From Candidatus Solirubrobacter pratensis (GTDB taxonomy: Bacteria; Actinomycetota; Thermoleophilia; Solirubrobacterales; Solirubrobacteraceae): DNA of 64,000 nucleotides. The stretch covers positions 372,001 to 436,000 of the forward strand of contig NZ_AUEK01000006.1 of assembly GCF_000425945.1 (NCBI RefSeq), read 5' to 3'. The notes under the pieces were generated by a model that was given only the letters and a program-made list of their open reading frames with translations, made no database searches and was not told the DNA's origin. Positions 9,707 through 33,873 of this stretch are shown here, one piece after another (within the stretch, counting starts at the first letter, position 1; the number at the start of each line of letters is the position of its first letter). The translations under genes and the position numbers were made by a program.

Positions 9707-9716
9707 CGCTGCGTAC

Positions 9717-12700
9717 ATGGATGTCTTCTCGCTCCGGGACCATCTGGTCAAGGACTATCAGCACTACGTCGAGAGCTTCATCGAGATTCGCGATCCCCGA
9801 ATCGCGGATCACGTCGCCCAGGAGCTCAAACGTGGACTTCTCTGGCCCGACCCGCGGCTTCAGATCAACCCCGCCTTCGCCAAGGGTGGCCTGATCGACG
9901 AACTGGCCGACGAGAGCGTGCTGCATGAGGAGTGCAAACGGATCTTCCGGGTGGGCAAGGACGACTCGCCATCCTCTACGGGACAGTCGCTGATGCTGCA
10001 CCGCCACCAAGAGGAGGCGATCCGCGTGGCGAGCCGGGGTCGCAGCTACGTCCTCACGACCGGCACCGGCTCGGGCAAGTCGCTCGCGTACATCGTGCCG
10101 ATCGTGGACCACGTCCTGAAAGCGGGACCGGGCGATGGACGGATCAAGGCGATCGTCGTGTATCCGATGAACGCGCTGGCCAACAGTCAGGCGCACGAGC
10201 TCGAGAAGTTCATCCGCTACGGCTACCCGACGTCGTCGGCGCCGCTGACGTTCGCCCGTTACACCGGCCAGGAGAACGAGGAGCAGCGCGAGCGGATCCG
10301 CAACCATCCGCCGGACATCGTGCTCACGAACTACGTGATGCTCGAGTACATCCTCACGCGCCCTGAGGATCGCAAGCTGATCAAGGCCGCCGGGGATCTC
10401 GCGTTCTTGGTGCTCGACGAGCTGCACACCTACCGCGGCCGCCAGGGCGCCGATGTGGCACTGCTCCTCCGACGCGTACGTGAGGCCACCGGCGCCCAGC
10501 ACTTGCGGTTCGTCGGCACGTCGGCCACGCTGGCCGGGCCGGGCAGTTGGAGCGATCAGCGCAAGGCGGTCGCCTCAGTCGCCACGCGCCTCTTCGGCCT
10601 GCCTGTGGACGACGACGCAGTGATCGGCGAGACGCTTGAGCCCGCGACGCTGCCGATCGACCTCGACGACCCGGCGACGGTCCAGGCCCTCCGTGCGCGG
10701 GTGGAGGCCGGGTCGCCACCGTCGCGGCGGGCGGATGTCGCCGGCGACCTGCTCGCACAATGGATCGAGCGACACCTAGGCGTTCGCCCTAGCGGATTCG
10801 AGGACCGGCTGGTGCGCAGCACGCCGCGGCCGCTGACCGGCGCCGACGGGGCCGACGACGCGCTCGCGACGATCACCGGGCTCCCGAGAACAAGCTGCCT
10901 TGAGGCGCTGCGCGCCACGTTGCTTGCTCGTGACGAGGACGACCGTCCCGTCTTCGCATTCCGGCTGCACCAGTTCCTCAGCGGGGGCAGCAAGGTCGCA
11001 GCGTCGGTGGACGCGCCGGACGTGCGCGAGATTTCCACCGGCGGGCAGCGCTACGTACCCGAGTCCGACCGGACCCGCATCCTGCTCCCCCTGTGCTTCT
11101 GCCGTGAGTGCGGGCAGGAGTACTACAGCGTCCGCCTACGTGAGGGCGCCCTGGAGCCGCGCGAGGTGTCCGAGCGAGACGGCGCCGAGAACGGTTATCT
11201 CTACGTCTCGGTCGACGCGCCGTGGCGCGAGGAGGACGTCCTGGACCGCATCCCGCAGGACTGGCTGCGTCCGGACGGGACAGGCGTCAAGCCCTCGCGC
11301 CAGAAGGACTTGCCGCGCGCGCTCGAGGTCGATGCCGCCGGCAACGTGGCGCCGGGCGGACTGCCGGCGACCTTCGTGCCGGCCCCGTTTCGCTTTTGCC
11401 TCCGCTGCGGCGTCGCCTACGGGCTGCGCCAGCAGGCCGATTACGGCAAGCTCGCGACGCTGGGCGGCGGGGGCCGGAGCACGTCGACCTCGATCCTTGG
11501 GCTTTCCACCGTTCGCCGTCTGCGCGCCGAGTCGGACCTCGACGAGGACCAGCGCAAGGTCCTGAGCTTCACGGACAACCGACAGGACGCCTCGCTGCAG
11601 GCTGGCCACTTCAACGACTTCGTGGAGATCGGCCTGCTGCGCTCGGCGCTGTACCGGGCGGTCGAACAGGCGGGAGCAAGCGGCATCGGCTACGACGAGC
11701 TCGGTCGTGCCGTGCTCCAGCAGCTTGCGTTGCCACTCACCGCGTACGCGGCGAACCCGACGGCCAAGCCGGGGCCACTGAACGAGACCAAGCGCGCGAT
11801 GGCGGACGTCATCGTCTACCGGCTGTTCCTCGACCAGCAGCGGCTTCGGCTCACGTCACCGAACCTCGAGCAGGTGGGGCTGCTGCGTATCGGCTACCCC
11901 TGGCTTGAGGAGTGCGCCACCGGATGGTCCTCCGAGCTGCCCGAGTGGTTCGAGGGAGCTGAGCCCGAGTCCGAGGTTTTGTCCCTCCTCGACGGCCTCA
12001 GCTCCTCGAAGCGGCAGCGCATTATCGGCGTACTGCTCGACCACCTGCGCCGCGAGCTCGCGATCAAAGCCGACCAACTCGACCCGCTCAGCCAGGACGC
12101 GCTGCGCTCGCGGGCGAACCAGCGACTCATCCCGCCATGGGCCGTCGAGCAGGACCGGCTGGAGTTCAGTGGGATCGTGCTCCCGCGCCCGCGTGCGGCC
12201 GACGACCCGCGTAGCGCCGCGTATCTGTCACCGCGCGGAGCGTTCGGGACGTTCCTGCGACGCTGCTTCGAGCACCCGCTTACGCTCCAGGACACTGCGG
12301 CGATCATCGCCCAGTTGTTGCATGGTCTCGAAGACCATGGGCTGCTGGACCGCGTCGCCGAAGGCGATCCTCCGGCGTTCCAGCTGCCGGCTAGCGCGAT
12401 GCGCTGGCTGCCGGGCGATGGGCGCACGTACCACGACGTGCTGCGCGTGCCGCAGGCGTCAAGCGAGGGTCGGCGGCCGAACCCGTACTTCGAGGAGCTC
12501 TACCGTCACGTCGCGCAGGACGCTGGCGGAATCAAGGCCGCCGAGCACACGGCGCAGGTCAACCCGGAGAAGCGCCAGGACCGCGAGCAGGCCTTCCGCG
12601 ACGGAGATCTGCCGGTGCTCTTCTGCTCGCCGACGATGGAGCTCGGCGTCGACATCTCGTCGCTGAACGTGGTGAACCTCCGCAACGTCCCACCGACGCC

Positions 12701-14852
12701 CGCCAACTATGCCCAGCGCTCCGGCCGCGCCGGGCGCAACGGCCAGCCCGCGCTCGTCTACACGTTCTGTTCGAGTTGGAACAACCACGACCAGTGGTAC
12801 TTCCGGCGCCAGGAACGGATGGTCGCCGGGCAGGTCGCCCCGCCGCGGCTCGACCTCGCCAACGAGGACCTCGTTCGCGCCCATGTGCACGCCGTCTGGC
12901 TCGCCGAGACGCGGGCCAAGCTGGGCAGCGCCCTGACCGAGCTGCTAGACGTCGACGGGCAGTCGCCATCGCTCACGATCCGTCATGACAAGGCGACGCA
13001 GCTCGGAGACCCCCAAGCGCGCGAACGCGCGCGCGAACGCGCCCGCCGGATCCTCGGGCTGCTCGGGCCGGAGGTCCAGGCCGCGGACTGGTTCGACGCC
13101 CACTGGGTCGACCGCGCGATTGACCACGCCTACCAGCGCCTGGATCGCGCGTGCAACCGCTGGCGCGAGCTCTACCGATCGGCGCTGGCCTCGATCGAGG
13201 CGCAGACACGCGCCATGACCGACCACACGCTGAGCACGCCCGCCAAGGAGGCCGCTAAGCGGCGCCTGCTCGAAGCCCACAGCCAGCTCTCGCTGTTGCA
13301 GGCGGGTGCGAGTGGCAGCCAGCAGTCGGACTTCTACTCGTACCGCTACCTCGCCAGCGAGGGGTTCCTGCCGGGCTACAGCTTCCCCCGGCTGCCGCTC
13401 TCGGCCTACATCCCCGGCCGCAACGTCAAGGGCACCGACGACTACCTGTCGCGGCCACGGTTCCTCGCAATCACGGAGTTCGGCCCCCGCAGCTTCATCT
13501 ACCACGAGGGCGCGCGCTACATCGTCGACAAGGTGATCCTCCCCCCGGCGCAGTCCGACGGCGCCCTTCCGCTCGCCGAGGCAAAGCTCTGTGAGCGCTG
13601 CGGCTTCCTGCACGAGGGCACCGACGCCGACGTGTGCGCCCGCTGCGGCACAGACCTACCGGCGGCGCTCACGAAGCTTCTGCGCCTGCAGAACGTCTCC
13701 ACGAGCCGGCGCGACCGGATCACGTCTGACGAGGAGGAACGCCAGCGGACCGGCTATGAGGTCCGGACGAGCGTGCGCTTCGACGAAATGCAGGGCCACG
13801 CCGCCCGAAGGTCGGGGACAGCGCGCGACGGCGACGGCGCCTCAGTCGCGGTGTTGGACTACGGCCCCGCCGCGACGGTGTGGCGTGTCAACCTCGGGTG
13901 GCTACGCCGCGCCGAGCCCGGCCGCACGGGCTTCGCCCTCGACATCGACTCCGGACGCTGGGAGCGCAACGAGGCCGTCGCGGACGACGAGCCGAATCCC
14001 CTCGCGAACGCGCCCAGGGTCAAGCGCGTGGTGCCCTACGTGGCCGACCGCCGCAACTGTCTGCTGCTCGACCCGACCGCCGACCTTCCGGTCGAGGCGA
14101 TGGCGTCGTTGCAGGCAGCGCTCAAGCGCGGGATCCAGAACGCGTTCAATCTCGAGGACCAGGAACTGGCCGTCGAGCCGCTGCCGACCCCCTCGACCCG
14201 CAATCTGATCCTGTTGTACGAGTCCGCCGAGGGCGGCGCCGGCGTACTGCGTCGCCTGCTCGACGAGCCGGCCGCGCTCGCCGAAGCCGCGACCGAAGCC
14301 CTCAAGCTGTGCCATTTCGACCCGGTCACGGGCGAGGATCTCGGCCGCGCCGAGCACGCCACGGAACGTTGCGAGGCCGCGTGCTACGACTGCCTGCTCT
14401 CCTACGGTAACCAGCGTGATCACGGGCTGCTCGACCGCCACCTCGTGGCCGGCGTCCTCAAGGCCCTCGCCGGCGGAACCGTCCAGGCCGCACCAGGGAG
14501 CGGGGCCCCAGACCAGCATCTGCAGGATCTCCTCGCCGCGACCGAAAGCGAACTGGAGCGCCGCTTCCTGCATCTGCTGGCCCAACAAGGTCGCCGGCTG
14601 CCAACCAACGCCGGTCGCCTGCTCGCGCAGGCCCGCTGCCGCCCCGACTTCCTCTACGCCGACGAGTATGTCGCCGTCTTCATCGACGGCCCGCACCACG
14701 ACGCACCGGAGCAGCAACAGGACGACGCGGACGCCGATGCCCGTCTGCGCGACCTCGGCTGGGAGGCCGTCCGTTTCCACCACGCGGCGGAGTGGGAGCA
14801 GCTGCTCGACGACCTGCCGAGCGTGTTCGGCGCTGGACGGGCACTGGCGTGA
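9717..14852 (+). CDS. DUF1998 SF2 helicase with C-terminal DUF559/Vsr-like nuclease domain (DrmA/DrmB- or DruE-like)
   Basis: 1711-residue SF2 helicase, head gene of the cargo operon. Walker A GTGSGKS is near 116-122, the DEXH box is VLDELHTY near 232-239, SATL is near 267, and motif [10 protein letters not shown] is near 1000. Cysteine pairs lie near 460 (CFCREC) and 560 (CLRC), and a zinc ribbon lies near 1292-1311 (CERCG...CARCG). The DUF1998 signature with [14 protein letters not shown] is near 1556. The last 75 residues read RPDFLY...[11 protein letters not shown]...LGWEAVRF, the layout of DUF559/Vsr-like PD-(D/E)XK nucleases. DISARM carries helicase (DrmA) and DUF1998 (DrmB) on separate proteins; Druantia DruE is one large protein like this one. 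I chose ATG 9717 because the product then begins [14 protein letters not shown], which is typical of this family; GTG 9669 is the alternative. Confidence 0.88.
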
Positions 14853-17659
14853 GCTACGCCGCCGGAACCCTCGTCCGCGCCCGCGGACGCGAGTGGGTCG
14901 TGCTCCCCGAGTCCGACGAGGACCTGCTCGTGCTGCGCCCGCTGGGCGGGACGGACGCCGAGGTCGCGGGCATCCTTCGTGCCCTCGAGGCGGTCGAGCC
15001 CGCGAGTTTCAGCCCGCCTGACGCCGCTGCGGCCGGGGACGCCACGCGCGCGCGACTGCTGCGAGACGCGCTGCGCCTCGGCTTCCGCTCCAGCGCGGGA
15101 CCGTTCCGCTCATTCGGGCGGATCGGCGTCGAGCCGCGGCCGTACCAGCTCGTCCCGCTTCTCATGGCGCTCAAGCTCGACCCGGTGCGGCTGCTGATCG
15201 CCGACGACGTCGGCATCGGCAAGACCATCGAGGCGTCGCTGATCGCGCGTGAGCTGATGGCCCAGGGCACGATCGAGCGCTTCGCCGTGCTCTGCCCGCC
15301 GCACCTCGCCGAGCAGTGGCGCGACGAGCTGCGCGCGAAGTTCGGGCTCGAGGCGACGCTCGTGCTCGCCTCGACGGCGCGCCGGCTCGAGCGCGCGCTC
15401 CCGGCGCATGAATCGCTGTTCGAGCACCATGACCACGTCGTCGTGTCGACCGACTTCATCAAGTCGCCGGCGCGGCGCGAGGAGTTCGTCCGCACCTGCC
15501 CGGAGCTTGTGATCGTCGACGAAGCGCACACGTTTGCCTCCGCGGGCGATCGCGCCCGTCAGCTCCGTCACGAGCTCCTGCTGAGGCTCGGCAGCGATTC
15601 CGGCCGTCATCTGATCCTGGTGACGGCGACGCCCCATAGCGGCAAGGAGAATGCGTTCTCGTCGCTGCTCGGCACGCTCTCACCGGAGCTGGGCGCCCTG
15701 CCCGCCGATCTCAGCGGCGGCGCGGGCGAGGCCGGCCGACGCCTGCTCGCGCGCCATCTGGTGCAGCGCCGGCGCGGCGACATCACGGCGTACGCGGATA
15801 CCGAAACGCCGTTCCCGCGGCGCGAGCAACCTGAGCGTGATCCGACGTACCGGCTCTCCCCGGAGCACCGGGAGCTGTTCCAGCGCGCGATCGCTTATGC
15901 GCGCGACGCGGCCGGCGCCGATGGGGACGAACGCCGCGTCCGCGTCCGCTGGTGGTCTGCGCTGGCGCTGCTGCGCGCGATCGGCTCGAGCCCCGCGGCC
16001 GCCGCGGCAACGCTGCGCTCCCGCGCCGCGAGCGCCGATGCCGCGACGCCGGAGGAGGCGGAGGAGCTCGGGCGCCGGACCGTGCTCGATCTGTCGGACG
16101 AAGACGAAGAGAGCCCGGACGTCGCACCTGGCGCCCAGGAGGAGGGTGCCGACGCGGCACTGCGCTCGTCCTCGTGGTTCAACCAGATGGCGCGCGATGC
16201 CGAGGCGCTGGCCGGCGCCGGCGACCCGAAGCTTCAGGGTGCGGTGAAGCTGATCAAAGATCTGCTCCGCGACGGCTTCAACCCGATCGTGTTCTGCCGC
16301 TTCATCCCGACGGCGGAGTACCTCGCGGAGCACCTGCACACCGCGGTGGGACGTCGGGCGTCGGTGGCGTGCGTGACCGGGCGCCTGGCACCGGCGGAGC
16401 GCGAGCAGCGCATCGACGAGCTGTCGGGTGCGGCACGGCGCGTGCTCGTGTGCACGGATTGCCTGAGCGAGGGCATCAACCTCCAGGACGCCTTCGACGC
16501 CGTGGTGCACTACGACCTGTCGTGGAATCCAACCCGCCACGAGCAGCGCGAGGGACGCGTCGACCGCTACGGACAGCCCAGTCCCGCGGTCCGGGTTCTG
16601 CCGTACTACGGCGAGGACTCGCCGATCGACGGCCTCGTGCTCGACGTGCTGCTGCGCAAGCACCGCGCGATCCGCGACCGCCTCGGCGTCTCGATCCCGG
16701 TTCCGGTGGACTCGGGGGCGGTGATGAGCGCCGTGCTCGAGGGCGTCCTGCGCCGCCGAAGCCCGGACACCCGCGCCGACCAGCTCATGCTGGAGGGGTT
16801 CGAGTCTCCCGCGCGCGACGCGCTGCACGCCGACTGGGAGACGGCTGCGACCCAGGAGGAGCGCTCGCGGACGGGCTACGCGCAGCGGACGATCCAGGTC
16901 GAGGATGTCGTCCGCGAGGTGCGCGCGATGGAGGCCGCCGTCGGCGCCGGGACGGACGTGCTGCGGTTCGCCGAGCAGTCGCTTGCGGCGCACGGCGCCG
17001 TGGTCCGCCGCGACGAGGACGGGGCCATCGAGGCGCTGGTCGACGAGGTGCCGCGCGCACTGCGCGAGGCGCTCGGCGACGCCGTCCACGCCGATCGCTT
17101 CGACATCGCCCGCCGCGGCGGCGCGCTCGCGCTCACGCGGACGCACCCGGCCGTCGAGGCGCTCGCGCAGCACGTCCTCGATGCGGCGCTCGACGGCGAT
17201 CCTGCCGCGGTCGCGACGCGCTGCGGTGTGTTGCGAACCGGGGCCGTCGACACGCTGACGACGATCTTGCTCGTCCGCTTGCGCTTCACGCTCACGCTCG
17301 GGCGTGGCGAGCGGGCGCGAGATTCGGTCGCCGAGGATGCCTTGACGCTCGCGTTCACCGGCGACCTGGCCGCGCCGTCGTGGCGCTCGCAGGAAGAGGT
17401 CGAGCGACTGCTCGACGCTAGTCCGGCGGGCAGCATCCCACCCGACCTGCGTGCGCGCGTGCTCACCCGGGCGCTCGCCGGGCTCGATGCGATGGCCGGC
17501 GCGCTGGCCGACCGCGCCGCGCAGCAGGCGCAGGAGATCGAGGACGCGCACCAGCGCGTGCGCGCCGGCGCGCGCGCCTCCGGCGCCCTCCGGGTCACGC
17601 CGCAGGGCACGCCGGACGTGCTCGGCCTTTACGTCTATCTCCCCGCCGGGACGCTCTGA
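14849..17659 (+). CDS. SNF2-family helicase, DrmD-like
   Basis: 936-residue SF2 translocase. Walker A is DDVGIGKT near 118-125, DEAH is VIVDEAHTF near 221-229, and motif VI is EQREGRVDRYGQ near 564-575. The N-terminus begins with a short beta-rich module (TLVRARGREWVVLPESDEDL) that I associate with DrmD-like proteins of class 1 DISARM. The GTG at 14849 overlaps the previous stop (GTGA), so the open frame's upstream extension is not used. It is placed directly between the DUF1998 helicase and the adenine methylase, the combination expected of a DISARM-related operon. In DISARM these proteins are thought to act on incoming DNA; the exact substrate here is inference. Confidence 0.85.
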   Translation: MSYAAGTLVRARGREWVVLPESDEDLLVLRPLGGTDAEVAGILRALEAVEPASFSPPDAAAAGDATRARLLRDALRLGFRSSAGPFRSFGRIGVEPRPYQLVPLLMALKLDPVRLLIADDVGIGKTIEASLIARELMAQGTIERFAVLCPPHLAEQWRDELRAKFGLEATLVLASTARRLERALPAHESLFEHHDHVVVSTDFIKSPARREEFVRTCPELVIVDEAHTFASAGDRARQLRHELLLRLGSDSGRHLILVTATPHSGKENAFSSLLGTLSPELGALPADLSGGAGEAGRRLLARHLVQRRRGDITAYADTETPFPRREQPERDPTYRLSPEHRELFQRAIAYARDAAGADGDERRVRVRWWSALALLRAIGSSPAAAAATLRSRAASADAATPEEAEELGRRTVLDLSDEDEESPDVAPGAQEEGADAALRSSSWFNQMARDAEALAGAGDPKLQGAVKLIKDLLRDGFNPIVFCRFIPTAEYLAEHLHTAVGRRASVACVTGRLAPAEREQRIDELSGAARRVLVCTDCLSEGINLQDAFDAVVHYDLSWNPTRHEQREGRVDRYGQPSPAVRVLPYYGEDSPIDGLVLDVLLRKHRAIRDRLGVSIPVPVDSGAVMSAVLEGVLRRRSPDTRADQLMLEGFESPARDALHADWETAATQEERSRTGYAQRTIQVEDVVREVRAMEAAVGAGTDVLRFAEQSLAAHGAVVRRDEDGAIEALVDEVPRALREALGDAVHADRFDIARRGGALALTRTHPAVEALAQHVLDAALDGDPAAVATRCGVLRTGAVDTLTTILLVRLRFTLTLGRGERARDSVAEDALTLAFTGDLAAPSWRSQEEVERLLDASPAGSIPPDLRARVLTRALAGLDAMAGALADRAAQQAQEIEDAHQRVRAGARASGALRVTPQGTPDVLGLYVYLPAGTL

Positions 17660-20600
17660 TGCGGGTCCGCTCGCCCGACCTGTTCGCCACCGTCCGCAGC
17701 GAGGGCGGGCTGCTGCCCGTCGACCTGCTCGCACGCGTGGCCGATGCGCGTGACCTGCCCGGGCTCGAGACAGCGTCGTACGGGCTCTTCGGCGAACGCT
17801 TCGGCGAGGCCATCACGCGATCGTGGAACCGACTGCTCGGCGCGTGGGCCGCGTTCGATGACGCGCGGGGGAACCTGCGAGCCGACGACGCCGGCGGAGC
17901 GCTGACCCGTGACCGCTGGCTCGCGGTGCTGCTGGAGGAGCTGCGTTTCGGGCGGCCGGGCCGCGGGAGCACCGTCCATGCCGACGGGCGCGAGTTCCCC
18001 GTGTACACGGTCTGGCAGGAGCGCATGCCGCTGCATCTCGTCGGCTGCAACGTCCCGCTCGATCGGCGCACCCGCGGCGTCCCCGGCGCCGCTGGGCAGA
18101 GCCCGCACTCGCTGGTGCAGGAACTGCTGAACCGGTCGGACGCGTTCCTGTGGGGGATCGCCAGCAACGGCCTGCAGCTGCGGCTGCTGCGTGACAACGT
18201 GTCGCTGACACGGCAGGCATTCGTCGAGTTCGACCTCGAGGCGATGTTCGCGTCGGAGGCCTACGCCGACTTCGTGGTGCTGTGGCTCGTCTGTCACGCC
18301 ACGCGCTTCGAAGGCAAGCGGCCCGCCGACTGCTGGCTCGAGCGCTGGACCCACCTCGCCGCCGAGGACGGCACGCGGGCCCTCGAGCGCCTGCGGGACG
18401 GCGTCCAGGACGCGATGGAGATCCTCGGGTCCGGGTTCATCGCGCACCCAGCGAACGACACGCTGCGGGCCGCGCTGCACGGCGGAGAGGTGAGCGACGA
18501 AGCGCTGCGCCGCTACCTCCTGCGGCTCGTGTACCGGATGCTGTTCCTCTTCGTGGCTGAGGACCGCGACGCGCTGCTGGTCGGCGGTGACGCGAGCGCC
18601 CGCGCGCGGTACACGCGCCACTACTCGACGCGGCGGCTGCGCGAGCTCGCGGGCCGCCGCCGCGGCGGCCGCCATTCCGACCTCTACGAGCAGGTCAAGG
18701 TCGTCAGCGGGCTGCTCTTCGAGAACGGGTTCGCCGCGCTCGCGCTGCCCGCCCTCGGGTCGTGGTTGTGGTCGCCCGGCGCCGTAGGGCCGCTGGGCAC
18801 CGCGCAGCTCGACAACCGCAGCCTGCTGGACGCGATGCTCGCGCTGGCCTACGTCGAGCAGGACGCGATCCGGCGGCCGGTCGACTTCCGGCATATGGGC
18901 GCAGAGGAGCTCGGCTCGGTCTATGAAGCGCTGCTCGAGCTGCGGCCGCGGGTGCATCTCGGCGCGCAGCGCTTCGAGCTCGTTACCGCTGCCGGCTCCG
19001 AACGCAAATCCACCGGGAGCTACTACACGCCGGCCGGACTGATCGGGGCGCTTCTCGACTCCGCGCTCGAGCCCGTCCTCGACCGCGCGGCACGCGCTGA
19101 CGAGCCGGAGGCTGCACTGCTCGCGCTCCGGGTGATGGACCCGGCGTGCGGCTCCGGGCACTTCCTGATCGCCGCCGCGAACCGCATCGCCCGCCGTCTC
19201 GCCCAGGTGCGCACCGGCGAGCTCGAGCCGGCGCCGGACGCGCTGCGGCATGCCGTACGTGACGTGATCGGCTCATGCGTCTACGGCGTCGACGTGAGCC
19301 CGATGGCCGTCGAGTTGTGCAAGGTGTCGCTGTGGCTCGAGGCGCTCGAGCCCGGCCGCCCGCTCTCATTTCTTGACCACCGGATCGTCGCCGGCAACAG
19401 CCTGCTCGGGACGACGCCCGAGCTGCTCGCGGGCGGCGTGCCCGACGAGGCGTTCAAGAAGCTGCTGGGCGACAACGCGTCCGTCGTGCGCGCACTCAAG
19501 GTGCGGAATAAGGTCGAGCAGCGCCAGATGGCGTTGGAGCACTTCGCCGAGGCGCTCGAGTCCGACGAAGACGCGATCTCGCGTAGCGCGGCCGCGATCG
19601 GCGCGGTCGACGACCCGCGCGAGCAGGAGCACCGCCACGCGCAACTGCTCGAGTCCAGCGAGCACGAGCGCGCACGCTGGGCGGCGGACGCGTGGTGCGC
19701 CGCGTTCGTCGCGCCGAAGATCGAAGGCGTGGTCGCGATCACACAGGATGTCGTGTCGCGCGCCGCCATCGGCGGGCCGGCCGCGCTCAGCGCCGAGGAG
19801 CGCGAGGTGATTACCGCCGAGGCCCGCTCGCACCGCTTCTTCCACTGGCATGTCGCGTTCCCGGACGCGTACGCGGCGGGCGGCTTTGACGCCGTGCTCG
19901 GCAACCCGCCGTGGGAGCGCGTGAAGCTGCAGGAGAAGGAGTGGTTTGCCACCCGCTCGCCGGAGATCGCGACCGCATCGACCAAGGCCGCGCGCGAGAA
20001 GCTGATTGAGAAGCTGCCGGAGACCGACGAGCCGTTGTGGGAGGCTTGGCAGGCCGCGAAACGGCGCGCTGAGGCGGCGTCGTTCCTGCTGCGTGCGTCA
20101 GGGCGCTACCCGCTCTGCGGACGCGGAGACGTGAACACGTACTCCGTGTTCGCCGAGGCGATGCGCGGGATGATCGGGCCGGCGGGCCGGCTTGGCGTGA
20201 TCGTCCCGACAGGGATCGCGACGGACGATACGACGAAGCACTTCTTCCGCGACCTCGTGAGCACGAGGTCGCTCGTATCGCTATGGGGTTTCGAGAACGA
20301 GGATCGTGTCTTCCCGGGGGTGCACCACGACACGAAGTTCTGCCTGCTAGCGATCCGACCCCCAACGCCGAACGCGTCGGACCCAAAGTTCGCGTTCTAT
20401 GCGCGCCAGACAGCCGACATCACCGACGAGTGGCGACGTTTCACGCTGTCGCCGGGCGACATTGCGCTGCTGAATCCAAACACCGGCACGTGCCCGAGCT
20501 TCCGCAGTGGCCAGGACGCTGAGGTGACCAAGAAGATCTACCTCCATGTGCCGCCCCTCGTCGCCGAAGGCACGGCGGGCGGGGACGCCTGGGGAGTTCG

Positions 20601-21543: not shown

Positions 21544-22037
21544 GCGCACCCGCCGCGCACCTGCTCGTGATCGGCGAACGCACCGCGCTCGCCTGGGTCC
21601 TCGGCGAACAGCGGATGGCATTCACGGCGAACCGCCGGACGGAGGCGTCGCGACTGCGCAGGGGCGACGCACTGCTGCTCTACACGACGCGCGGCACCTA
21701 CCACAACCCGACGCGCGACCGCGGGCGGGTGATCGGCGAGGCGACTGTGCTCGCGCCGGTCGCTCCGCTGACCGAGCCGGTCGCGTTCGAGGGCCGCGAG
21801 TTCCCGATCGGCTGCCCGCTGCGCGTCGAGCGGCTCGCGCCGCTGCGCACGGGCGTCGAACTCGGCCCACTCGTGCCGGAGCTCGAAAGCTTCCCTGATC
21901 CGGCGACCTGGAGCGCGCGGATGCGGCGGCCGCTCGTCCCGCTCACCGCCGCCGACGCTGAGCGGCTGCGACGGGCGCTCGACGCCATCGCCGGGCCACC
22001 GGAAGCGGTCCTGGACTCGTACCTCGCGCTCGCGTGA
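21540..22037 (+). CDS. EVE/PUA-like domain protein
   Basis: 165-residue single-domain protein with the EVE/ASCH (PUA-like) pattern: WVLGEQRMAF at the start, a RGDALLLYTTRG strand-turn and then DRGRVIGEATV. EVE domains bind modified bases in DNA or RNA and are common in defence islands next to methylases and nucleases, so a role in reading base modification, of self or of phage, is plausible. Here it sits inside the operon, overlapping the methylase stop and the next start by 4 nt each, which implies coordinated production. No enzymatic motif is visible. The assignment is from pattern recognition, without a search. Confidence 0.65.
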   Translation: MSAPAAHLLVIGERTALAWVLGEQRMAFTANRRTEASRLRRGDALLLYTTRGTYHNPTRDRGRVIGEATVLAPVAPLTEPVAFEGREFPIGCPLRVERLAPLRTGVELGPLVPELESFPDPATWSARMRRPLVPLTAADAERLRRALDAIAGPPEAVLDSYLALA

Positions 22038-24205: not shown

Positions 24206-24217
24206 GAGGAGACCGCC

Positions 24218-27200
24218 GTGCCCACCACGATCCAGCACCTGTCCATCCGCGTTCCCTGGCACGACCACGGGTGGGAGGGAACCGTCTGCGACGCGCCGTC
24301 GCGCAACGACGCCTGTCTCGTGCTCCCACGCATCAACGAGGAGCGCGTGGACGCGGTCGAGGACGGGCTGCACGGGCGCGACTGGGAGCAGGTGCGGCAG
24401 GCCCAGTGGCCGCCGTGCGTGCGTGAGAAGGCGGGCTTCATGCGCGCGAGCGAACTGCACGTCCCGATCACCCACCCGTATCGCGAGTACTCGCCGGCAC
24501 ATGAAGGGCTCAACCCGCTGCTCCTGCGCATCCCTGCCTACTCGGCACCGTGCGTCCCGTTCCGCTGGATGAGCCGTGACACGGCGGAGGAACTCGCCGC
24601 GGCGGAGGCCGTCGACTACCAGCCGGAGCTCGAGGAGGCCGCGAACGAGCAGATCGGCTTCAACACGAGCTGGGTCCAGGACGGCGGCAACCAGCGGCGG
24701 CTCCTGAACGCATTCTTCGAACGGATTGGCACGGGTTCGCTGTGCTTCTTCTACGCCCGCCGCGTGCCTCACTCCGACGAGGATCGCAAGACCCTGATCG
24801 GCGTCGGACGCGCGCTGCACACCGGCGATCCCTCGGTGTTCAAGGGCGACAACCCGCTCGACACCGTCGCGTGGGAGTGCATGGTGCAGCACTCGATCCG
24901 GCCTGACCACGCCGACGGCTTCCTCTTGCCGTATCACGCCGCGCTGGTCGCGGCCGAGGCCGACCCGTCGATCGACCCGGCGAGCGTCCTCGCGTACGTG
25001 CCGGACGAGGGCTGGGATGAGTTCGCCTACGGCACCGAGCATGTGACACACGACACGGCGATCAGCGCGCTTGTCGCCTGCGAACGGGCCTTGCGAGAGG
25101 CCGAGCGGGTGCTGCCCGGCGCACGCTCGCGCGAGCTGCAGTGGATCTCCGACCGGCTCGGCGAGCTGTGGCGGATGCGTGGCCCGAGCCCCGGCATCGG
25201 CTCGGCGCTCGAGGCTTTCGGCGTGCTCAGTGGGACGCTCGTGCTGCGCCGGCTCGAACCGCACGTGCCGGAGGGCGGCGATCCCTGGGACGTCGTCGAG
25301 GCGGCACTCGCGGACCCGTCGCGCTACGACGTCGCCGACGCGTTCACGCCGAGCCTGGCGAAAAAGTGGTCAGGGCTCGGCACCCAGCGCCGCGAGCTGC
25401 TGAAGCTGCTCTCGCGCTTCGACCTCACGCAGGACCAGGCCAGGCGTTGGTATGACCCGGACGACCGGGCGCTGGCGGGCATCTCCCTGCACGACGGTGA
25501 GATCGTCGCCAATCCCTACGTCCTCTATGAGGCCGACCGTGACCAGCTGGATCCGATCGTCGTCTCGGTCGTCGACCACGGCGCGTTCCCGGCCCCGGTG
25601 ATCGCGGAGCGTCACCCCCTGCCCGAGCCCAGCCGCGTGACGGACAACCAAGACATCCGGCGCAGTCGCGCGCTGCTGATCGAGCAGCTAGAACGCGCAG
25701 CCGATGCCGGTGACACGCTACGCGGCACGGGGCGGCTGGCGCGCGGCGTGCGGGAGATGGAGCTGACGCCGCCGTGCCCGCTCGACGCCGACATGGTCGC
25801 CGCCTACGGCGAGGCGCTCGAGCCGCCGATCCGCCGCGTCGAGCTGCACGGCGGCGCGCCCGCGCTGCAGCTCGATCGCTACGTCGACGGCGGCCGAGTC
25901 ATCCGCGACTTCGTCCTCAAGCGCCGCGGCGGGAAGCGCCACCCGGCCGTGGACGACTGGCGCGCGCGCCTGGACATGGCGCTCGGCGGGCCGGCCGCCC
26001 CGGATGACCCGGACGAGGAGCGGGCGCGTCAGGAGAAGACCTCGGCGCTCGCGGAGCTGCACGAGAGCCGCATGTCGGTGCTCGTCGGCCCGGCCGGCAC
26101 GGGCAAGACGACACTGCTGCGTACGCTCTGCGACCACCCGTCCGTCGACACCGGCAGCGTGCTCCTGCTCGCGCCGACGGGCAAGGCGCGCGTGCGCATG
26201 GCGCAGGCGCTGGAGCGCGAGAGCCAGACGATCGCGCAGTTCCTACTCAAGATTGGCCGCTACGACGCCGAGACGGCCCGCTACCACCGCTCGAGCGGGC
26301 CCGCCGAGGGCGGCTACGGCACCGTGATCGTGGACGAGGCGAGCATGCTGACCGAAGATCAGCTGACGGCAGTGATCGACGGTCTGCGAGGCGTCAAGCG
26401 CTTCATCCTCGTCGGCGATTACCGGCAGCTGCCGCCGATCGGCGCAGGACGCCCGTTCGTGGACATCGTGCACCTGCTCGAGCCCGACCGGGTGGAGGCG
26501 CGCTTCCCGCGGGTCGGCCCGAGCTACGCCGAGCTGACCGTGCCGCGCCGGCCGACGACGATCGCCGGCAAGGTCACGAGCGCCGCGCAGAAGCGCGCCG
26601 ACCTGATGCTGGCCGAGTGGTTCAGCGGCCGCGCGCCGAGCCCGGGCGCCGACGTCGTCTGGGACGAACTACGCAAGGGCGAGGTGGACGGCACGCTCCG
26701 CGTGCTGCGCTGGGAGGGCCCGGACGATCTGCGTGCGCAGCTGCTCGCCGTGCTCGTCAAGGAGCTCGACCTCGACGGACAGGATGACGTGACCGGCTTC
26801 GAGGTCAACTGCGGCGGGTCGGTCTACAACGACAGCGTCTACTTTCACCGCGGGCGCAAAGCGGGTGAGGGTGCCGCGCTGGCGGCGGACGCGTGGCAGA
26901 TCCTCGCGCCCGTGCGTGGGCGCCCGCACGGCGTCCGCGAGCTCAACCGCGCCCTGCACAAGCGCTTTCGCCACAAGGCAATCGAGGACGCGCAGGACCG
27001 CTGGCGGCGCGTGCCGGCGCCGCTCGGCGCCGAGCAGATCGTCTACGGAGACAAGGTGATCAGCGTCCGCAACGAGAGCTGGCGCAAGGTCTTCCCGGAC
27101 AAGGCCGACCGCTATGTCGCCAACGGCGACATCGGGATCGTCGTCGGCCAGTTCAAGGGCAAGACGAGCAAGATCAAGGGCGCGCCGTGGAAGAGCGAGA

Positions 27201-27946
27201 TCGAGCTCAACTCGCAACCCGGCTTCGTCTACGAGTACCGGCCCTCGCACTTCATCGAAGAGGGCGCCGCTCCGCTCGAACTCGCCTACGCGCTAACGAT
27301 CCACAAGGCGCAGGGGAGCGAGTTCGGCCGCACCGTCGTCGTCATCCCGGAGCCCTGTCGGCTGCTCTCACGGGAGTTGCTTTACACGGCGCTGACGCGC
27401 CAGAGCAAGCGGGTGACGATCCTCTACCAGGGCGAGCCGGGAGGGCTGCTGCGGTACGCCGCACCCGAACTGTCCGAGACTGCGGGACGGCTCACGAACC
27501 TGTTCTCGGCGCCCGACATCGTGGAGCGGCCCAACGGCAAGTACCTGGAGCGCGGGCTCATCCACACCACCTCCGGCGGAGACGTCGTGCGGTCCAAGTC
27601 GGAGGCGATTATCTGCGAAGCGCTCTTCGAGCGCGACATCGAGTACGTCTACGAGAAGGAACTGCGCTTCGACGACGGAAGCCGCCGCCTCCCGGACTTC
27701 ACGATCGAGGACGACGACCGCGGTCTGACGATCTATTGGGAACACCTCGGCATGCTGGGCGACACCGAGTACGCGCGGCGCTGGGAGGCAAAGCGCCGCT
27801 GGTACGCGGACCACGGCGTGCTGGAACGATCGGCCGAGCACCCGGACGGCGGGCCGGAGGGAATGCTCGTGTGGACTTCCGACGACGAGCACGGTGGCAT
27901 CGACATCCCGGCGATCAAGGCGTTTGTCGCCGACCTGTTCAGCTGA
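24218..27946 (+). CDS. RecD-like SF1B helicase with C-terminal PD-(D/E)XK nuclease-like domain
   Basis: 1242 residues. A long N-terminal half (1-600) without recognised motifs precedes a RecD-type helicase: VGPAGTGKTTLL near 622-633, VIVDEASML near 703-711, GDYRQLPPIG near 733-742, ALTIHKAQGSEF near 1025-1036 and YTALTRQ near 1056. The C-terminus has the PD-(D/E)XK layout: SKSEAIICEAL near 1127, LPDFTIEDD near 1158, IYWEHLGM near 1171 and WEAKRRWY. A strong AGGAGGAG-type ribosome site sits just before the GTG at 24218, 12 nt after the UvrD-like gene, so it belongs to the same operon. The protein is a potential helicase-nuclease effector. Confidence 0.85.
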   Translation: MPTTIQHLSIRVPWHDHGWEGTVCDAPSRNDACLVLPRINEERVDAVEDGLHGRDWEQVRQAQWPPCVREKAGFMRASELHVPITHPYREYSPAHEGLNPLLLRIPAYSAPCVPFRWMSRDTAEELAAAEAVDYQPELEEAANEQIGFNTSWVQDGGNQRRLLNAFFERIGTGSLCFFYARRVPHSDEDRKTLIGVGRALHTGDPSVFKGDNPLDTVAWECMVQHSIRPDHADGFLLPYHAALVAAEADPSIDPASVLAYVPDEGWDEFAYGTEHVTHDTAISALVACERALREAERVLPGARSRELQWISDRLGELWRMRGPSPGIGSALEAFGVLSGTLVLRRLEPHVPEGGDPWDVVEAALADPSRYDVADAFTPSLAKKWSGLGTQRRELLKLLSRFDLTQDQARRWYDPDDRALAGISLHDGEIVANPYVLYEADRDQLDPIVVSVVDHGAFPAPVIAERHPLPEPSRVTDNQDIRRSRALLIEQLERAADAGDTLRGTGRLARGVREMELTPPCPLDADMVAAYGEALEPPIRRVELHGGAPALQLDRYVDGGRVIRDFVLKRRGGKRHPAVDDWRARLDMALGGPAAPDDPDEERARQEKTSALAELHESRMSVLVGPAGTGKTTLLRTLCDHPSVDTGSVLLLAPTGKARVRMAQALERESQTIAQFLLKIGRYDAETARYHRSSGPAEGGYGTVIVDEASMLTEDQLTAVIDGLRGVKRFILVGDYRQLPPIGAGRPFVDIVHLLEPDRVEARFPRVGPSYAELTVPRRPTTIAGKVTSAAQKRADLMLAEWFSGRAPSPGADVVWDELRKGEVDGTLRVLRWEGPDDLRAQLLAVLVKELDLDGQDDVTGFEVNCGGSVYNDSVYFHRGRKAGEGAALAADAWQILAPVRGRPHGVRELNRALHKRFRHKAIEDAQDRWRRVPAPLGAEQIVYGDKVISVRNESWRKVFPDKADRYVANGDIGIVVGQFKGKTSKIKGAPWKSEIELNSQPGFVYEYRPSHFIEEGAAPLELAYALTIHKAQGSEFGRTVVVIPEPCRLLSRELLYTALTRQSKRVTILYQGEPGGLLRYAAPELSETAGRLTNLFSAPDIVERPNGKYLERGLIHTTSGGDVVRSKSEAIICEALFERDIEYVYEKELRFDDGSRRLPDFTIEDDDRGLTIYWEHLGMLGDTEYARRWEAKRRWYADHGVLERSAEHPDGGPEGMLVWTSDDEHGGIDIPAIKAFVADLFS

Positions 27947-27986
27947 AACCCTGATCCTTCGGCGAGGACGGTCAGGAATCGGCGAC

Positions 27987-27999: not shown

Positions 28000-28006
28000 C
28001 TTAACG

Positions 28007-30766
28007 ATGCCCCGAGTCACCACGCACCCCGACCACGCCGCCGAGCAGGCGTACATCGAGCTTGTCCACCATGCCGAGCAGGCTGCCCGCGCTCGCGCCG
28101 AGCATGGCCCCGAAGCCGGCGCCGATCGCTTTGCGGCGCGCGAGGCGCGCCGCCAGATGCTCGAGCGATTCAAGGACCCGATCGACGTCGACGCCCTCTG
28201 CTTCGGACGTATTGACCTCGACCGAGGACGGACGTACTACGTCGGCCGTGGCGCGGTCCACGGGCCTCAGGGTGAGCTACTGGTCGTCAACTGGCGCATG
28301 AGGGCTGTGGCGCCGTTCTACACGGGCAGCCGCCAGGACCCGCAAGGACTCGAGCGCCGGCGGCGCTTCCAGCTCGATCGCCTGCGACTGCTCGGGATCG
28401 TGGAGGACGTGTTCGGCGGTACACCCGCCACCGTCAGGCAACTGCCGGACGTCACACCGGAGCAGCTGCCGGACGCCACGCCGGAGCAGCTGCCGGACGT
28501 CACGCCGGAGCAGTCCGAGGAGCGGCCGCTCGAGCCGCACGTCGTCGACGCGATTCTCACCGACATGGACCGCGCCCGCGGCGCGGAGATGCGTGACATC
28601 GTCGCGACGATCGAGGCCCGCCAGTACGAGCTCATGAGCGATGCGCTCGAGGGCTTGCTGGTCATTCAAGGCGGACCCGGCTCGGGTAAGACCGCGATCG
28701 CCCTGCACCGCGCGGCCTGGCTGCTCTACAACTACCAAGAGGAGCTCGGGCGCACGGGTGTGCTCGTCGTCGGCCCGAACCGTGCGTTCATGGAGTACGT
28801 CGCCGCGGTGCTGCCCTCGCTAGGCGAGAGCGCGGTGGTTCAGTCTTCGATCGACCGCCTCCCCGATCTCGGCGACGTCCGCGTGCGCGCGACCGAGCGG
28901 ACCGAGGCGGCCCGCGTCAAGGGCGACGTCCGGATGGCGGCGATCGTGCAGCGCGCCGTGGCGGCTCGCGTGCGCGTCCCGGAGGAGGACGTCACGCTGA
29001 CCGTCGGGCGTATCCGTCCGGTGCTGCCCGCCGACCACATAAAGCGGATTGTCGGCGAAGCTTGGAGCGCGGGTCGCACTTACCTCGGCGCGCGCGAAGT
29101 GTTCCGCCGCGAGCTCGTCGTACTCGCGCACGAGCACGTCGGCGAGCGGCGCGGGCTGTTCCGCTCCGGTCCGGATCCTGCGGAGGTCGAGATGGCCGTC
29201 ACGGGCACGGGCGGCGCGCTGGAGCGAATCTGGCCGACGGTTACGGCGCCGCAAGTCGTGCGCGATCTGCTGGCCTCCAAGCAGCGCCTCGCGGCCGCCG
29301 CGGCAGGATCACTAACCGACGAGGAGAGCGAGCTGCTGCGCCGCTCGCAAGCCGGGTCGATCCGTCAGGAACCCTGGACTGCCGCGGATATACCGCTGCT
29401 GGACGAGGCCGACGCGCTCGTGCGTGGGGTGAGCTCGTCCTACGGCTACGTTCTCGCCGACGAGGCGCAGGACCTCTCGCCGATGCAGCTGCGCATGATC
29501 TTGCGGCGCTCGACCGCCGGTCGCGCGACGCTGGTGGGCGACATCGCTCAGGCCACCGGCGCGTACCGTTGCACCGACTGGCTGGAGCTGCTCGACGCGA
29601 CCGGGTTCGACACCGATCCGCGAATCGCCGAGTTGGCGGTCGGCTACCGCGTGCCGCGCCAGATCATGGAGCTCGCCGCCGAGCTGATCCCGCGCATCGC
29701 CCCGGACACGTTCGTCCCGCGCGCGGTCCGGCTCGGGCCGGAAGACCCGCGCGTGATCGCCGTCGAGGACGGTGGCCTCGCGACTGCGCTGGTCGCCGAG
29801 GTGACGACGCGCGTCGACGGCGAGCGAACGGTCGGCGTGATCGCTCCCGCCGGCCTCCTCGAGGACCTGCGCGGTGCACTGGCGGCGGCCGGCATGCAGG
29901 CCGGCGACATCCTGACCGACGGCTTGGCGCGCACGGTGACCGTGCTCTCGGCCGACCAGGCGAAGGGCCTCGAGTTCGACCACGTCGTCGTGGTGGAGCC
30001 CGCGGCGATCGCCGGTGCCGCCGAAGAATGGGCCTACGTATACATCGCGCTGACGCGTGCAACGCGCACGCTGTCGGTCCTGCACACGACGCCCGCACCG
30101 TTCGAGCGTCCGCCCGTCGAGCCTGACCCGGAACCGGAGCCGGCCACGCCCGCGCCCGAGTTGATTGCCATCCCGGTTCCGGAGCCCGCGGGCATCGAGC
30201 TCACCGCCCGCTACACCGAGGCGCTGCTACAGGCGAAGTTCCTCCACGCCGGTCAGCGCCGGCGCGGCACGCCCGTGCCCTACCTCGCCCACCTGCAGGC
30301 GGTCGCCGCACTCGTGCTCGAGGATGGGGGCAGCGAGGACGAGGCGATCGCCGCGCTGCTGCACGACGCGGCCGAGGATCACGGCGCGGCGACGCTGGAC
30401 CGGATTGCCGAGCATTTTGGCGTCGGAGTCGCGCGCATCGTGCTCGGATGCACGGACCCGGAAGGCGAGCCCGATGCGTCGTGGCGCGAGCGCAAGCGCG
30501 ATCACCTGCGCGAGCTCGAGAGCGCGGGGCCCGAGGTGCGGCGGGTCGCGCTCGCCGAGAAGCTGGACAACGCTCGCGCGCTGCTGCGCGACTACCGTCG
30601 CATCGGCGACCGGTTGTGGACGCGGATGGCGGTCGATCCGGAGGACATCCTCTGGTACCAGGAGGAACTCGCCGACCTGTTCGTCGCCGAGCGCCCGGGC
30701 GATATGGCGTCCGAGCTGCAGGATGCGGTCGACCGGCTGCTCGAGCTCGCGTCCGAGCCCGGTTAG
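28007..30766 (+). CDS. HelD-like SF1 helicase fused to a SpoT/MESH1-like HD domain
   Basis: 919 residues. Residues 1-710 form a HelD/UvrD-type ATPase: GGPGSGKTAIAL near 222-233, VLADEAQDLSPMQ near 482-494, GDIAQATGAY, KGLEFDHVVVVEP near 655 and ALTRATRTLSVLH near 682. Residues 731-885 match the hydrolase domain of MESH1/SpoT/RelA: GTPVPYLAHLQAVA, LLHDAAEDHG, a GCTD turn, ERKRDHL and LAEKLDNARALLRD. These give the H...HD...(D/E) metal set, with Glu where Rel/SpoT have Asp (ADRLHN). Three tandem LPDVTPEQ-like repeats (28442-28513) lie before the ATPase. The product could hydrolyse an alarmone or related nucleotide while acting on DNA or RNA polymerase; that role is inference. The stop overlaps the convergent gene's stop. 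Confidence 0.85.
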   Translation: MPRVTTHPDHAAEQAYIELVHHAEQAARARAEHGPEAGADRFAAREARRQMLERFKDPIDVDALCFGRIDLDRGRTYYVGRGAVHGPQGELLVVNWRMRAVAPFYTGSRQDPQGLERRRRFQLDRLRLLGIVEDVFGGTPATVRQLPDVTPEQLPDATPEQLPDVTPEQSEERPLEPHVVDAILTDMDRARGAEMRDIVATIEARQYELMSDALEGLLVIQGGPGSGKTAIALHRAAWLLYNYQEELGRTGVLVVGPNRAFMEYVAAVLPSLGESAVVQSSIDRLPDLGDVRVRATERTEAARVKGDVRMAAIVQRAVAARVRVPEEDVTLTVGRIRPVLPADHIKRIVGEAWSAGRTYLGAREVFRRELVVLAHEHVGERRGLFRSGPDPAEVEMAVTGTGGALERIWPTVTAPQVVRDLLASKQRLAAAAAGSLTDEESELLRRSQAGSIRQEPWTAADIPLLDEADALVRGVSSSYGYVLADEAQDLSPMQLRMILRRSTAGRATLVGDIAQATGAYRCTDWLELLDATGFDTDPRIAELAVGYRVPRQIMELAAELIPRIAPDTFVPRAVRLGPEDPRVIAVEDGGLATALVAEVTTRVDGERTVGVIAPAGLLEDLRGALAAAGMQAGDILTDGLARTVTVLSADQAKGLEFDHVVVVEPAAIAGAAEEWAYVYIALTRATRTLSVLHTTPAPFERPPVEPDPEPEPATPAPELIAIPVPEPAGIELTARYTEALLQAKFLHAGQRRRGTPVPYLAHLQAVAALVLEDGGSEDEAIAALLHDAAEDHGAATLDRIAEHFGVGVARIVLGCTDPEGEPDASWRERKRDHLRELESAGPEVRRVALAEKLDNARALLRDYRRIGDRLWTRMAVDPEDILWYQEELADLFVAERPGDMASELQDAVDRLLELASEPG
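28442..28513 (+). repeat. Three tandem 24-bp coding repeats
   Basis: Units at 28442-28465, 28466-28489 and 28490-28513 each encode LPD(V/A)TPEQ and differ at only two or three bases. They lie in a linker of the HelD-like protein ahead of the ATPase domain. In-frame 24-bp units allow length variation without breaking the gene. Confidence 0.85.
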
Positions 30767-33700: not shown

Positions 33701-33873
33701 GCGTCGAGCGCGGCCAGCTCGAGGTGTCTCGAGCTGTAGACCTGCGCGCCGCTAGAGAAGCGAACCCGGTATTGCGGCTCGGACCCGGCCGTGAGCACAT
33801 CGGTCACGACGCCAATTCCGGACTCTGGACGCGCCCGGAGAAGCACCTCGTCGCCCTTTGCGTATGCGAACAC
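30763..33873 (-). CDS. HepA/RapA-type SNF2 helicase
   Basis: 1036-residue SF2 translocase. Walker A is DEVGLGKTIEAG near 122-133, DEAH is VIVDEAHHMRN near 228-238, and motif VI is RVEQRIGRLDRYGQ near 619-632. A long C-terminal part (from about 650) is charged and partly coiled-coil. It is a second, distinct SNF2-type protein in the same island and is encoded against the main operon: its TAA and the HelD-like gene's TAG share two bases at 30763-30766. The ATG at 33873 opens MFAYAKGDEVLLRARPE. Proteins of this type occur in many defence islands and also as transcription-recycling factors; context favours defence. Confidence 0.85.
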   Translation of the reverse strand: MFAYAKGDEVLLRARPESGIGVVTDVLTAGSEPQYRVRFSSGAQVYSSRHLELAALDAGLEVDPVALLRDGALADAETFRAFMTLAKLDKPLADNLYSFAASRTERLPHQFKAVLKLLANPYGRLLIADEVGLGKTIEAGIILTELNARGALDHVLVACPSPLTQKWRSEMRDRFLFDFEVLDGQGFREFVTTDLDAPSPEPRRVIASLELMRRAENLEALGTAAPSLDVVIVDEAHHMRNVGTATNDLGEVLAGLAETVVFLTATPLNLGRQDFFNLMNLLVPEEFPQAETFSALIEPNEHINLALRHLRGTWPPRFDDALAALRRVERTALAARFTRSARYVGTRETLMRGAAGQAVGREQVVRCQRDLIELNTLSHVFTRTRKREVQDLFPTRRSRTVSVAFTDEESAFYDAVTDWALATYAERAAHLVAATFQRLAASCLPALGARLTDAVRSGLLTIGADEATELADDPGLGDALDDALAGEQVRLELQPSEAVNHLLATWDAYGGRVDSKFGGFERALTDSFAAGADRILVFSYFTGTIDYLAHRLANLFVDGRPLLVLKLYGPMNSEQRERAVTRFRDDRGPVVLLSSEVGSEGLDFQFCARMFNYDLPWNPMRVEQRIGRLDRYGQSSEVIHILNMIVAETIEERIFHRLYQRIQIFESSIGDLEAILGDVEVDLAALQRDALSGRLTDAELERRRNLIADVILRRQQDNETFEQESKQFLSNDEVFLELFNDIERSRRYVTPEELRLLVERYLAVCGCNVGLEPVGAQSGVFRLSGAIAPFRGLLARTLSHSGGGAKAARAFIGRLRDEGIDVTFEPAIATAQRRLEFISLHHPIVRALALSDDVRGALSCCAAIALDLDLAPSVPHGFFVFELQAHGLKDELEQAAVIVRPDGEVIDGGADLIARLEDARDVAVLRSLTGVEVDRMHHAALDWVTAEVAAREQELQARNDEIVTAQVESLRLTTDRRRLWLQQQIEEGRSAPIVRMRRSQLGRLEVDHETKLAALEGKRGISVGNRLVAAGLVVAV

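Follow-up and report, generated by a model that had tools for sequence, protein, structure and literature searches.

A probable ARMADA type I core with accessory genes in a defence array of Candidatus Solirubrobacter pratensis

Introduction

What kind of defence system is encoded by eight closely packed helicase, methylase and nuclease-like genes of Candidatus Solirubrobacter pratensis, and do all eight belong to it? The genes, g1 to g8, lie at 9669-33873 of a 64,000-nt stretch of contig NZ_AUEK01000006.1 (positions 372,001 to 436,000), which as a whole is called the window here; its genome is also labelled G000 and the contig C4. We put the probability at about 80% that g1-g3 are the core of an ARMADA type I system, that g4, g5 and g6 are add-ons to this core and that g7 and g8 are neighbouring genes of the same island. 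ARMADA was defined by Bell et al. 2025 (bioRxiv, September 2025; PMC12458937), and in the text of that preprint type I generally has YprA first, a BrxHII-like helicase next and then a PglX-like methylase, and its YprA ends in a Vsr-type nuclease. The eight genes are as follows.

g1, 9669..14852, + strand: YprA-family helicase, 1727 aa, with RecA1, a long insert with two CxxC pairs, RecA2, DUF1998/MZB and a C-terminal DUF559/Vsr-like PD-(D/E)XK nuclease; corresponds to the ARMADA YprA (ArmC equivalent)
g2, 14849..17659, + strand: SNF2/RapA-type helicase, 936-955 aa, ArmA equivalent; Pfam SNF2-rel_dom and Helicase_C; a longer start at 14792 is possible
g3, 17659..21543, + strand: adenine-type DNA methylase, 1294 aa, ArmB equivalent; Pfam Eco57I and N6_Mtase; motifs DPACGSG and NPPW
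g4, 21540..22037, + strand: EVE-domain protein, 165 aa; profile match to UPF0310/EVE structures
g5, 22034..24205, + strand: RelE-like domain fused to a UvrD/GajB-type helicase, 723 aa, ArmD-like; Pfam UvrD and a RelE profile
g6, 24218..27946, + strand: RecD2-like helicase with a C-terminal PD-(D/E)XK-like domain, 1242 aa; PADLOC candidate PDC-S68; RecD-like AAA
g7, 28007..30766, + strand: HelR/HelD-like RNA polymerase motor with a small alarmone hydrolase HD domain (predicted), 919 aa; NF041258 and HD_4
g8, 33873-30763, - strand: second SNF2/RapA (DrmD-like) helicase, 1036 aa; PADLOC DrmD PDLC02623; convergent to g7

All eight are open frames at the places given in an earlier note on this DNA, and each has family or homologue support. 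The spacings that it reported are confirmed on the coordinates: g1-g5 are joined by overlaps of 4, 1, 4 and 4 nt, g6 starts after a gap of 12 nt and g7 after one of 60 nt, and the convergent g8 overlaps g7 by 4 nt. For g1 a start at 9717 (residue 17) is plausible, given that homologues align from about residue 14-17. A codon score also selects all eight frames, of which g4 is the sole one outside its training set, so that the score is no independent proof. The domain calls are upheld by Pfam, NCBIfam and PADLOC (DEAD, Helicase_C and MZB/DUF1998 in g1, SNF2 in g2 and g8, Eco57I/N6 methylase in g3, UvrD in g5, RecD-like AAA in g6, HelR-like and HD_4 in g7), and the EVE call in g4 and the RelE call in g5, for which the window proteins alone have no Pfam match, are supported by multi-sequence profiles.

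The g1-g3 core

The order of the first three genes, YprA, an SNF2/BrxHII-like helicase and a PglX-like methylase, is that of ARMADA type I, and the likeness extends to the Vsr-type nuclease on YprA and to the place of this protein on the type I side of the YprA tree; the difference is that the window adds an EVE, a RelE-UvrD and a RecD2-nuclease gene after the core. In g1 the Pfam matches DEAD, Helicase_C and MZB are accompanied by the motifs GTGSGKS, DELH and QRSGRAGR, and the C-terminal domain is DUF559/Vsr-like, with DUF559 found in 8/8 members of the family, MTES_1575 in 6/8 and Vsr in 2/8 (E<=1). The nuclease residues E1630, P1659-D1660, D1673, H1677 and D1686 are conserved in 45-50 of the 54 YprA proteins on the type I side. 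The nuclease that was thought to be missing with the absence of DrmC is thus fused to the C-terminus of g1, and the union of helicase and DUF1998 in one protein, which had been taken for a special feature, is the usual form of YprA. Between RecA1 and RecA2, C191, C194, C290 and C293 (segment numbering) are kept in at least 90% of 43 rows, and the structure model of the segment (mean predicted local distance difference test score, pLDDT, 80) has strands between the CxxC pairs, a predicted beta-rich zinc-binding module as in ARMADA type I. After RecA1, where ARMADA has a BrxA-like insert, the g1 model (mean pLDDT 80) shows helices. In g2, PADLOC PDLC02853, labelled 'DpdE', matches with 849 bits across nearly the whole length (14792-17659). 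A defence-type system with a methylase had been proposed, and it stands: g3 is an Eco57I/N6_Mtase protein with DPACGSG and NPPW, in a core that we read as ARMADA.

A tree of 66 YprA proteins places the window among 54 on the type I side, and 11 type II rows form one branch with a support of 100. The tree was built by a quick method from proteins of at least 1500 aa and at least 110 bits, with DISARM and Druantia rows left out; two of the 11 type II rows (G300, G689) owe their label solely to YprA adjoining RelE-UvrD, and the unlabelled row L120, whose branch is very long, falls on the side of type II. When g3 was searched against GTDB genomes, 80 loci in many phyla were recovered, of which 54 are in the order YprA-SNF2-methylase, 2 in another order and 24 without one of the parts, many on short contigs. 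Within the class, 15 of 399 sampled genomes, the genome itself included, have a g3-type methylase at E<=1e-50.

ARMADA type II (E. coli NCTC 12900 in the text of PMC12458937, and plasmid loci L163-L166) has SNF2, methylase, YprA and RelE-UvrD parts in common with the window, but its methylase precedes YprA, L163 has a larger YprA (2113 aa) and methylase (1644 aa), and its YprA branch and ArmD clade are separate. Type II identity was rejected on these grounds, given that the window does not have the order SNF2, methylase, YprA, RelE-UvrD and lies off both the type II YprA branch and the type II ArmD clade.

An SNF2 helicase, an adenine methylase and a YprA-type helicase with DUF1998 are also what the locus shares with class 1 DISARM, and DrmMI and DpdE are among the best PADLOC matches. 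Even so, class 1 DISARM or Dpd with divergent genes is scarcely credible as an identification: one protein of 1727 aa is found, not a separate DrmA and DrmB, the nine proteins scanned with Pfam include no PLD DrmC, NCBIfam DrmD reaches 321 bits against a cut-off of 610, and the NCBIfam Dpd models, likewise far below their cut-offs, led us to reject Dpd as well. A Pfam scan of 29 proteins, taken from the element and its right edge, found no 7-deazaguanine insertion genes. The description of the locus as DISARM-related but distinct stands in that it is related to DISARM yet not DISARM; the core is no new kind of system, having already been catalogued as ARMADA type I (PMC12458937). The PADLOC DruE models of Druantia are the best g1 match at 354 bits, but this match is partial only, and no Druantia partner gene (DruH or others) is among the matches listed for nine proteins scanned with PADLOC; on these matches Druantia identity appears disfavoured. 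Separately, PADLOC PDLC02853 may describe the ARMADA SNF2 helicase rather than Dpd.

Genes behind the core

Downstream genes were surveyed with mechanical open reading frames at 96 loci with the methylase, four type II plasmid loci having been set aside beforehand; 15 of the 96, with <700 bp after the methylase, were dropped, which left 81 loci (window included). This survey does not bear out the earlier idea of eight genes that travel together. RelE-UvrD comes directly after the methylase, or after EVE, in 4 of the 81; g6 shows linkage at 2 loci, and EVE and g7 at 1 each, with the window counted every time and many loci ending too early to reveal a gene as distant as g7. The commonest accessory gene surveyed is an SMC-like gene of ~650-680 aa within four open reading frames after the methylase (16/81 loci, e.g. 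L013:14574-16679), the one member scanned having a weak DUF2326 match. Another four loci out of 81 carry a relative of the Nocardioides AAA ATPase that precedes mcrC, in two of them immediately after the methylase. Because RelE-UvrD, SMC-like and AAA ATPase genes vary there among loci, the position behind the methylase seems to be occupied by an exchangeable module in ARMADA type I. On the Nocardioides plasmid pNOCA01 (L156:1-22890), typed conjugative, DISARM genes, an ARMADA type I core and a McrC-type gene with AAA ATPase stand in a row.

G365, a genome of the same family, has YprA, SNF2, methylase, RelE-UvrD and RecD2-nuclease genes in order at 58, 59, 52, 62 and 37% identity, with a 4-nt overlap of the methylase and RelE-UvrD genes and without the EVE gene. 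It bears on the proposal that all eight proteins form a single extended machine, which we regard as very unlikely. Tight spacing of the seven + strand genes would fit such a machine, as would g7 and g6 relatives in one array in genome G124 and DrmD-like second SNF2 genes near the core in L014 and L031. The linkage counts go the other way: among the 96 methylase loci, many of them short, linkage is seen for g7 at 1 locus (the window), for g6 at 2, for g4 at 1 and for g8-like genes at 3, and the 50 kb fetched from G365 hold no g4 or g7 match and match g8 solely through the SNF2 gene. The evidence supports an operon of five or six genes and not an eight-gene unit.

No Pfam model matches the RelE domain of g5; it is supported by a 12-sequence profile, which matches RelE3 (E=3e-9), RelK and YoeB. 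The main text of PMC12458937 describes RelE-UvrD solely for ARMADA type II. At type I-linked loci the gene follows the methylase in the window (past EVE), in G365 (at the same position, 62% identical), in L003 and in L034, where it is joined to the methylase on a contig too short to show the remaining core; L135 has it within its cassette, and in L057 it separates the methylase from YprA. The L158 copy, ~10 kb downstream, is a member of the type II clade. In a tree of 29 RelE-UvrD rows, trimmed to the last 760 residues, the type II ArmD proteins form one clade (98/97) that contains three unlabelled rows (L142, L145, L158); the window, G365 and a protein of genome G157 form a separate clade (100/100), and L135 pairs with the protein that G488 has next to its DISARM-like genes. 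The six rows linked to type I do not form a single group, as supported branches force two label changes on them; because none of the six falls in the type II clade, the RelE-UvrD partners of type I are not simply borrowed from type II ArmD. Their presence with type I cores, in a lineage apart from type II ArmD, points to a functional need for this partner. The same genome G157 holds a type II ARMADA operon and a separate RelE-UvrD gene near SbcCD-like and HerA/NurA-like genes (loci L185/L186; the latter genes named by eye).

Between g3 and g5, with a 4-nt overlap on either side, sits g4. A profile of the window protein and four relatives matches PH1033 UPF0310/EVE structures (E=9e-7), Pfam EVE is found in 2/5 members of the family, and the match to NF002008 (E=8e-5) is far below the model cut-off. 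Relatives are rare: they occur in 4 of 276 phylum-sample genomes, counting that of the window, and among 72,556 plasmid records in 3, each from Rhodococcus; the class and phylum surveys are samples throughout. Their settings are restriction-like: in G009 the gene overlaps a McrC-like gene (named by eye), in G488 it adjoins class 1 DISARM-like genes (Drm names by eye) and a RelE-UvrD gene, and in Rhodococcus plasmid pDK4 it adjoins a type I restriction-modification operon. The relative in G515 is on a 5-kb contig, an uninformative context. A natural guess is that g4 is a putative reader of modified bases. Because G365 holds the operon without the EVE gene, this gene looks like an insertion in the lineage of the window or a loss in that of G365.

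PADLOC PDLC05065 (PDC-S68) matches g6 with 1516 bits over residues 3-1241 of 1242. The C-terminal residues E1129, P1159-D1160, E1175 and K1192 are present in 9/9 aligned relatives, a PDB sequence search with the C-terminal domain gave no match, and from the motif conservation and a weak PADLOC PD-D/EXK match we call it a putative PD-(D/E)XK-like nuclease. Matches at E<=1e-60 occur in 3/296 phylum-sample genomes (own included), and the name 'PDC-S68' is absent from the literature searched.

Several observations weigh against an ARMADA type I core with g4, g5 and g6 as add-ons. EVE lies inside an ARMADA operon at one locus only, the window, and the window and G365, both of one family, are the only two examples of core plus RelE-UvrD plus PDC-S68. 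All four plasmid loci opened have PDC-S68 without an ARMADA core nearby, and so do G432 and G438, where the gene has an internal stop in both; because PDC-S68 occurs on plasmids without the core, g6 is a portable gene taken into the operon and not a defining part. Matched to solved Vsr structures in the PDB, the g1 tail is weak (E=0.07), and a fold search with the model for the BrxA-like insert had no significant match (Foldseek best E=0.24, VIA best Z=3.0).

A rival reading is one of stacked independent defences, an ARMADA type I system (g1-g3) and unrelated stand-alone g5, g6, g7 and g8 sharing an island, which we consider the less probable account although a substantial one. PDC-S68 stands alone elsewhere, most RelE-UvrD/UvrD homologues of the phylum sample have no ARMADA core in the 7-20 kb fetched, and SPARSA-like and LeoA/LeoBC-like pairs are in the same element. 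Against this, g4 and g5 are joined by 4-nt overlaps, the succession g3-g5-g6 is retained in G365 at 37-62% identity, and type II ARMADA requires its RelE-UvrD gene according to the text of PMC12458937. We thus keep to a type I core with g4-g6 attached, a variant within a published system and not a class of its own, and what is new at this locus is the attachment: a RelE-UvrD gene outside the type II ArmD clade, the EVE insert and PDC-S68.

Probable island neighbours g7 and g8

Each half of g7 matches its own family strongly, a HelD/HelR-like motor (PDB 6yxu, E=6e-67) and a small alarmone hydrolase (7qoe, E=3e-39); what differs from both families is their fusion. NF041258 gives 314 bits, below its cut-off of 1100, and HD_4 E=2e-17. 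The HD motif is intact in all three fused copies found, HDAAED at 786 in g7, HDVVED in G124 (51% identity over 5-916) and HDAVED in G166, with KLDNAR in all three, and with HD_4 and an intact HDxxED the C-terminus is predicted to be a small alarmone hydrolase. A HelR-like match is present in 24/299 genomes of the class, at least 3 of them fused to the hydrolase, and in 12/232 of the order, again at least 3 fused, as tallied from the listed places with few candidates per genome scored. In G124 the fusion lies upstream of an Eco57I-type methylase, a large PLD-helicase-like protein and an RNase H-like protein (both of the latter by eye), with a frameshifted PDC-S68 8 kb on, and G124 and G166 share a Vsr-like gene and a three-gene group adjoining it (by eye). 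On these observations g7 plausibly acts in defence, and for it to act inside ARMADA is unlikely. No description of a HelR/HelD-alarmone hydrolase fusion was found in a literature search (one query matched the common word 'held') or in a term search of a HelD review. A second unusual fusion is a small alarmone hydrolase domain in a 708-aa protein of G157 with an HNH-like C-terminus (by eye; C1, L188:5327-7453).

For g8, PADLOC DrmD PDLC02623 gives 448 bits, and NCBIfam DrmD gives 344 bits, below the cut-off of 610. Weaker relatives of g8 near the ARMADA cores at L014 and L031 are the sole kin of g7 or g8 near another core in the survey, and the two genes are probably island neighbours rather than operon members. 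A pattern method that detects close relatives only found no g4, g5 or g7 relatives in viral contigs.

Proposed mechanism

In type II ARMADA, according to the text of PMC12458937, there is an anti-phage effect that needs all four genes and in which most of the helicase and methylase motifs count; infected cells survive, so that defence is non-abortive. The ARMADA phage experiments in that text concern type II, and the window locus offers a type I candidate that is complete in itself. The related YprA helicase DruE is reported to load on 3' single-stranded DNA and to cleave (PMC13192584). What is seen at the window locus is homology, order, overlaps, motif integrity, tree positions and element repeats, and from these we infer the mechanism throughout. 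The g3 methylase would mark host DNA as self and the g2 SNF2 motor would scan or remodel incoming duplex DNA, while the g1 YprA motor might load on single-stranded or replicating phage DNA for its C-terminal nuclease to cut. EVE (g4) could bind modified bases, so that phages hidden by modified DNA would still be caught; the overlapping EVE gene suggests how ARMADA-type systems may meet such phages. A UvrD motor and a RelE-type RNase would be the contribution of g5, the latter perhaps cleaving transcripts of invading DNA, and g6 may serve as a second helicase-nuclease, able to act alone. As a separate protein, g7 would strip stalled RNA polymerase and destroy alarmones, its simplest purpose being to restart transcription after an attack or an alarmone toxin. 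In support, the widening of range to modified DNA by g4 ranks above RNA cleavage by g5, and this above the restoration of transcription by g7, all of them inferred.

A bolder proposal, which we hold to be doubtful, is that g7 founds a new type of defence protein, in which the HelR-like motor would strip stalled or hijacked RNA polymerase and the hydrolase would remove (p)ppGpp or toxic (p)ppApp on the spot, a single protein thereby undoing both arms of a shutdown of transcription; g7 would then be a recovery module of ARMADA here, and EVE plus RelE-UvrD would make a two-signal ARMADA against unmethylated and hypermodified DNA. The HelR-alarmone hydrolase fusion in defence islands, brought to light here, is the most novel item and lies beside the operon.

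The carrier element

That the array is cargo of a conjugation-type element was claimed earlier, and it is borne out by a MobF relaxase, a coupling protein and 43-bp direct repeats at a tRNA-Thr. The features in the window are as follows.

5789..8584, - strand: MobF/TrwC relaxase-helicase; Pfam TrwC E=5e-83; NF041492 260 bits, above its cut-off of 100
4115..5785, + strand: coupling protein of a type IV secretion system, TraG/TraD type; Pfam T4SS-DNA_transf E=4e-38
38536..38578, no strand: right-end attachment repeat, 43 bp from the 3' part of tRNA-Thr, with a perfect second copy on this contig at C4:337678-337720
38537..38609, - strand: tRNA-Thr(CGT), integration site

The direct repeats are 73 kb apart and bracket the element, within which lies a tyrosine-integrase-like open reading frame (by eye; no Pfam match). 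Inside the element, GC at third positions ranges from 0.75 to 0.92; beyond the tRNA on the right it is mostly 0.90-0.99, a stronger contrast than with the left flank (0.86-0.96). The tRNA-Thr and the stretch downstream of it occur together in 7/7 genomes of the genus (own included). The other six genomes of the genus have no long match to the left chromosomal flank next to tRNA-Thr, so that no empty site was found among them. Because G157 and G706 hold second copies of the repeat, 51 kb (C1:2942403-2993736) and 19 kb away (C416:14782-34261), the tRNA-Thr site seems to be used repeatedly, probably by other elements. An imperfect inner copy at C4:346442-346499, with upstream bases similar to the left end, suggests that the island may be two elements in tandem.

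The relaxase and coupling-protein genes adjoin the array, as they would if the genes were element-maintenance or anti-restriction cargo that aids establishment, with phage defence secondary. We think this very unlikely, though, given that experiments in type II show the core family to be anti-phage (text of PMC12458937) and that the core occurs in many settings; a defence system with a type I core, carried as cargo, remains our reading.

Other genes of the element include a SPARSA-like pair, SIR2-APAZ and short Argonaute (PADLOC 1040 and 472 bits), at C4:346709-350757, left of the window, and a further SIR2-like protein at C4:351099-352604 (by eye, motif LLGAGASIEAGLPS). Two GTPases at C4:338296-341974 match PADLOC LeoA (214 bits) and LeoBC (216 bits) and may belong to the smaller of the tandem elements. 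A DDE transposase with DUF772 lies at 34626-36146 of the window (- strand), past the defence genes and before the tRNA.

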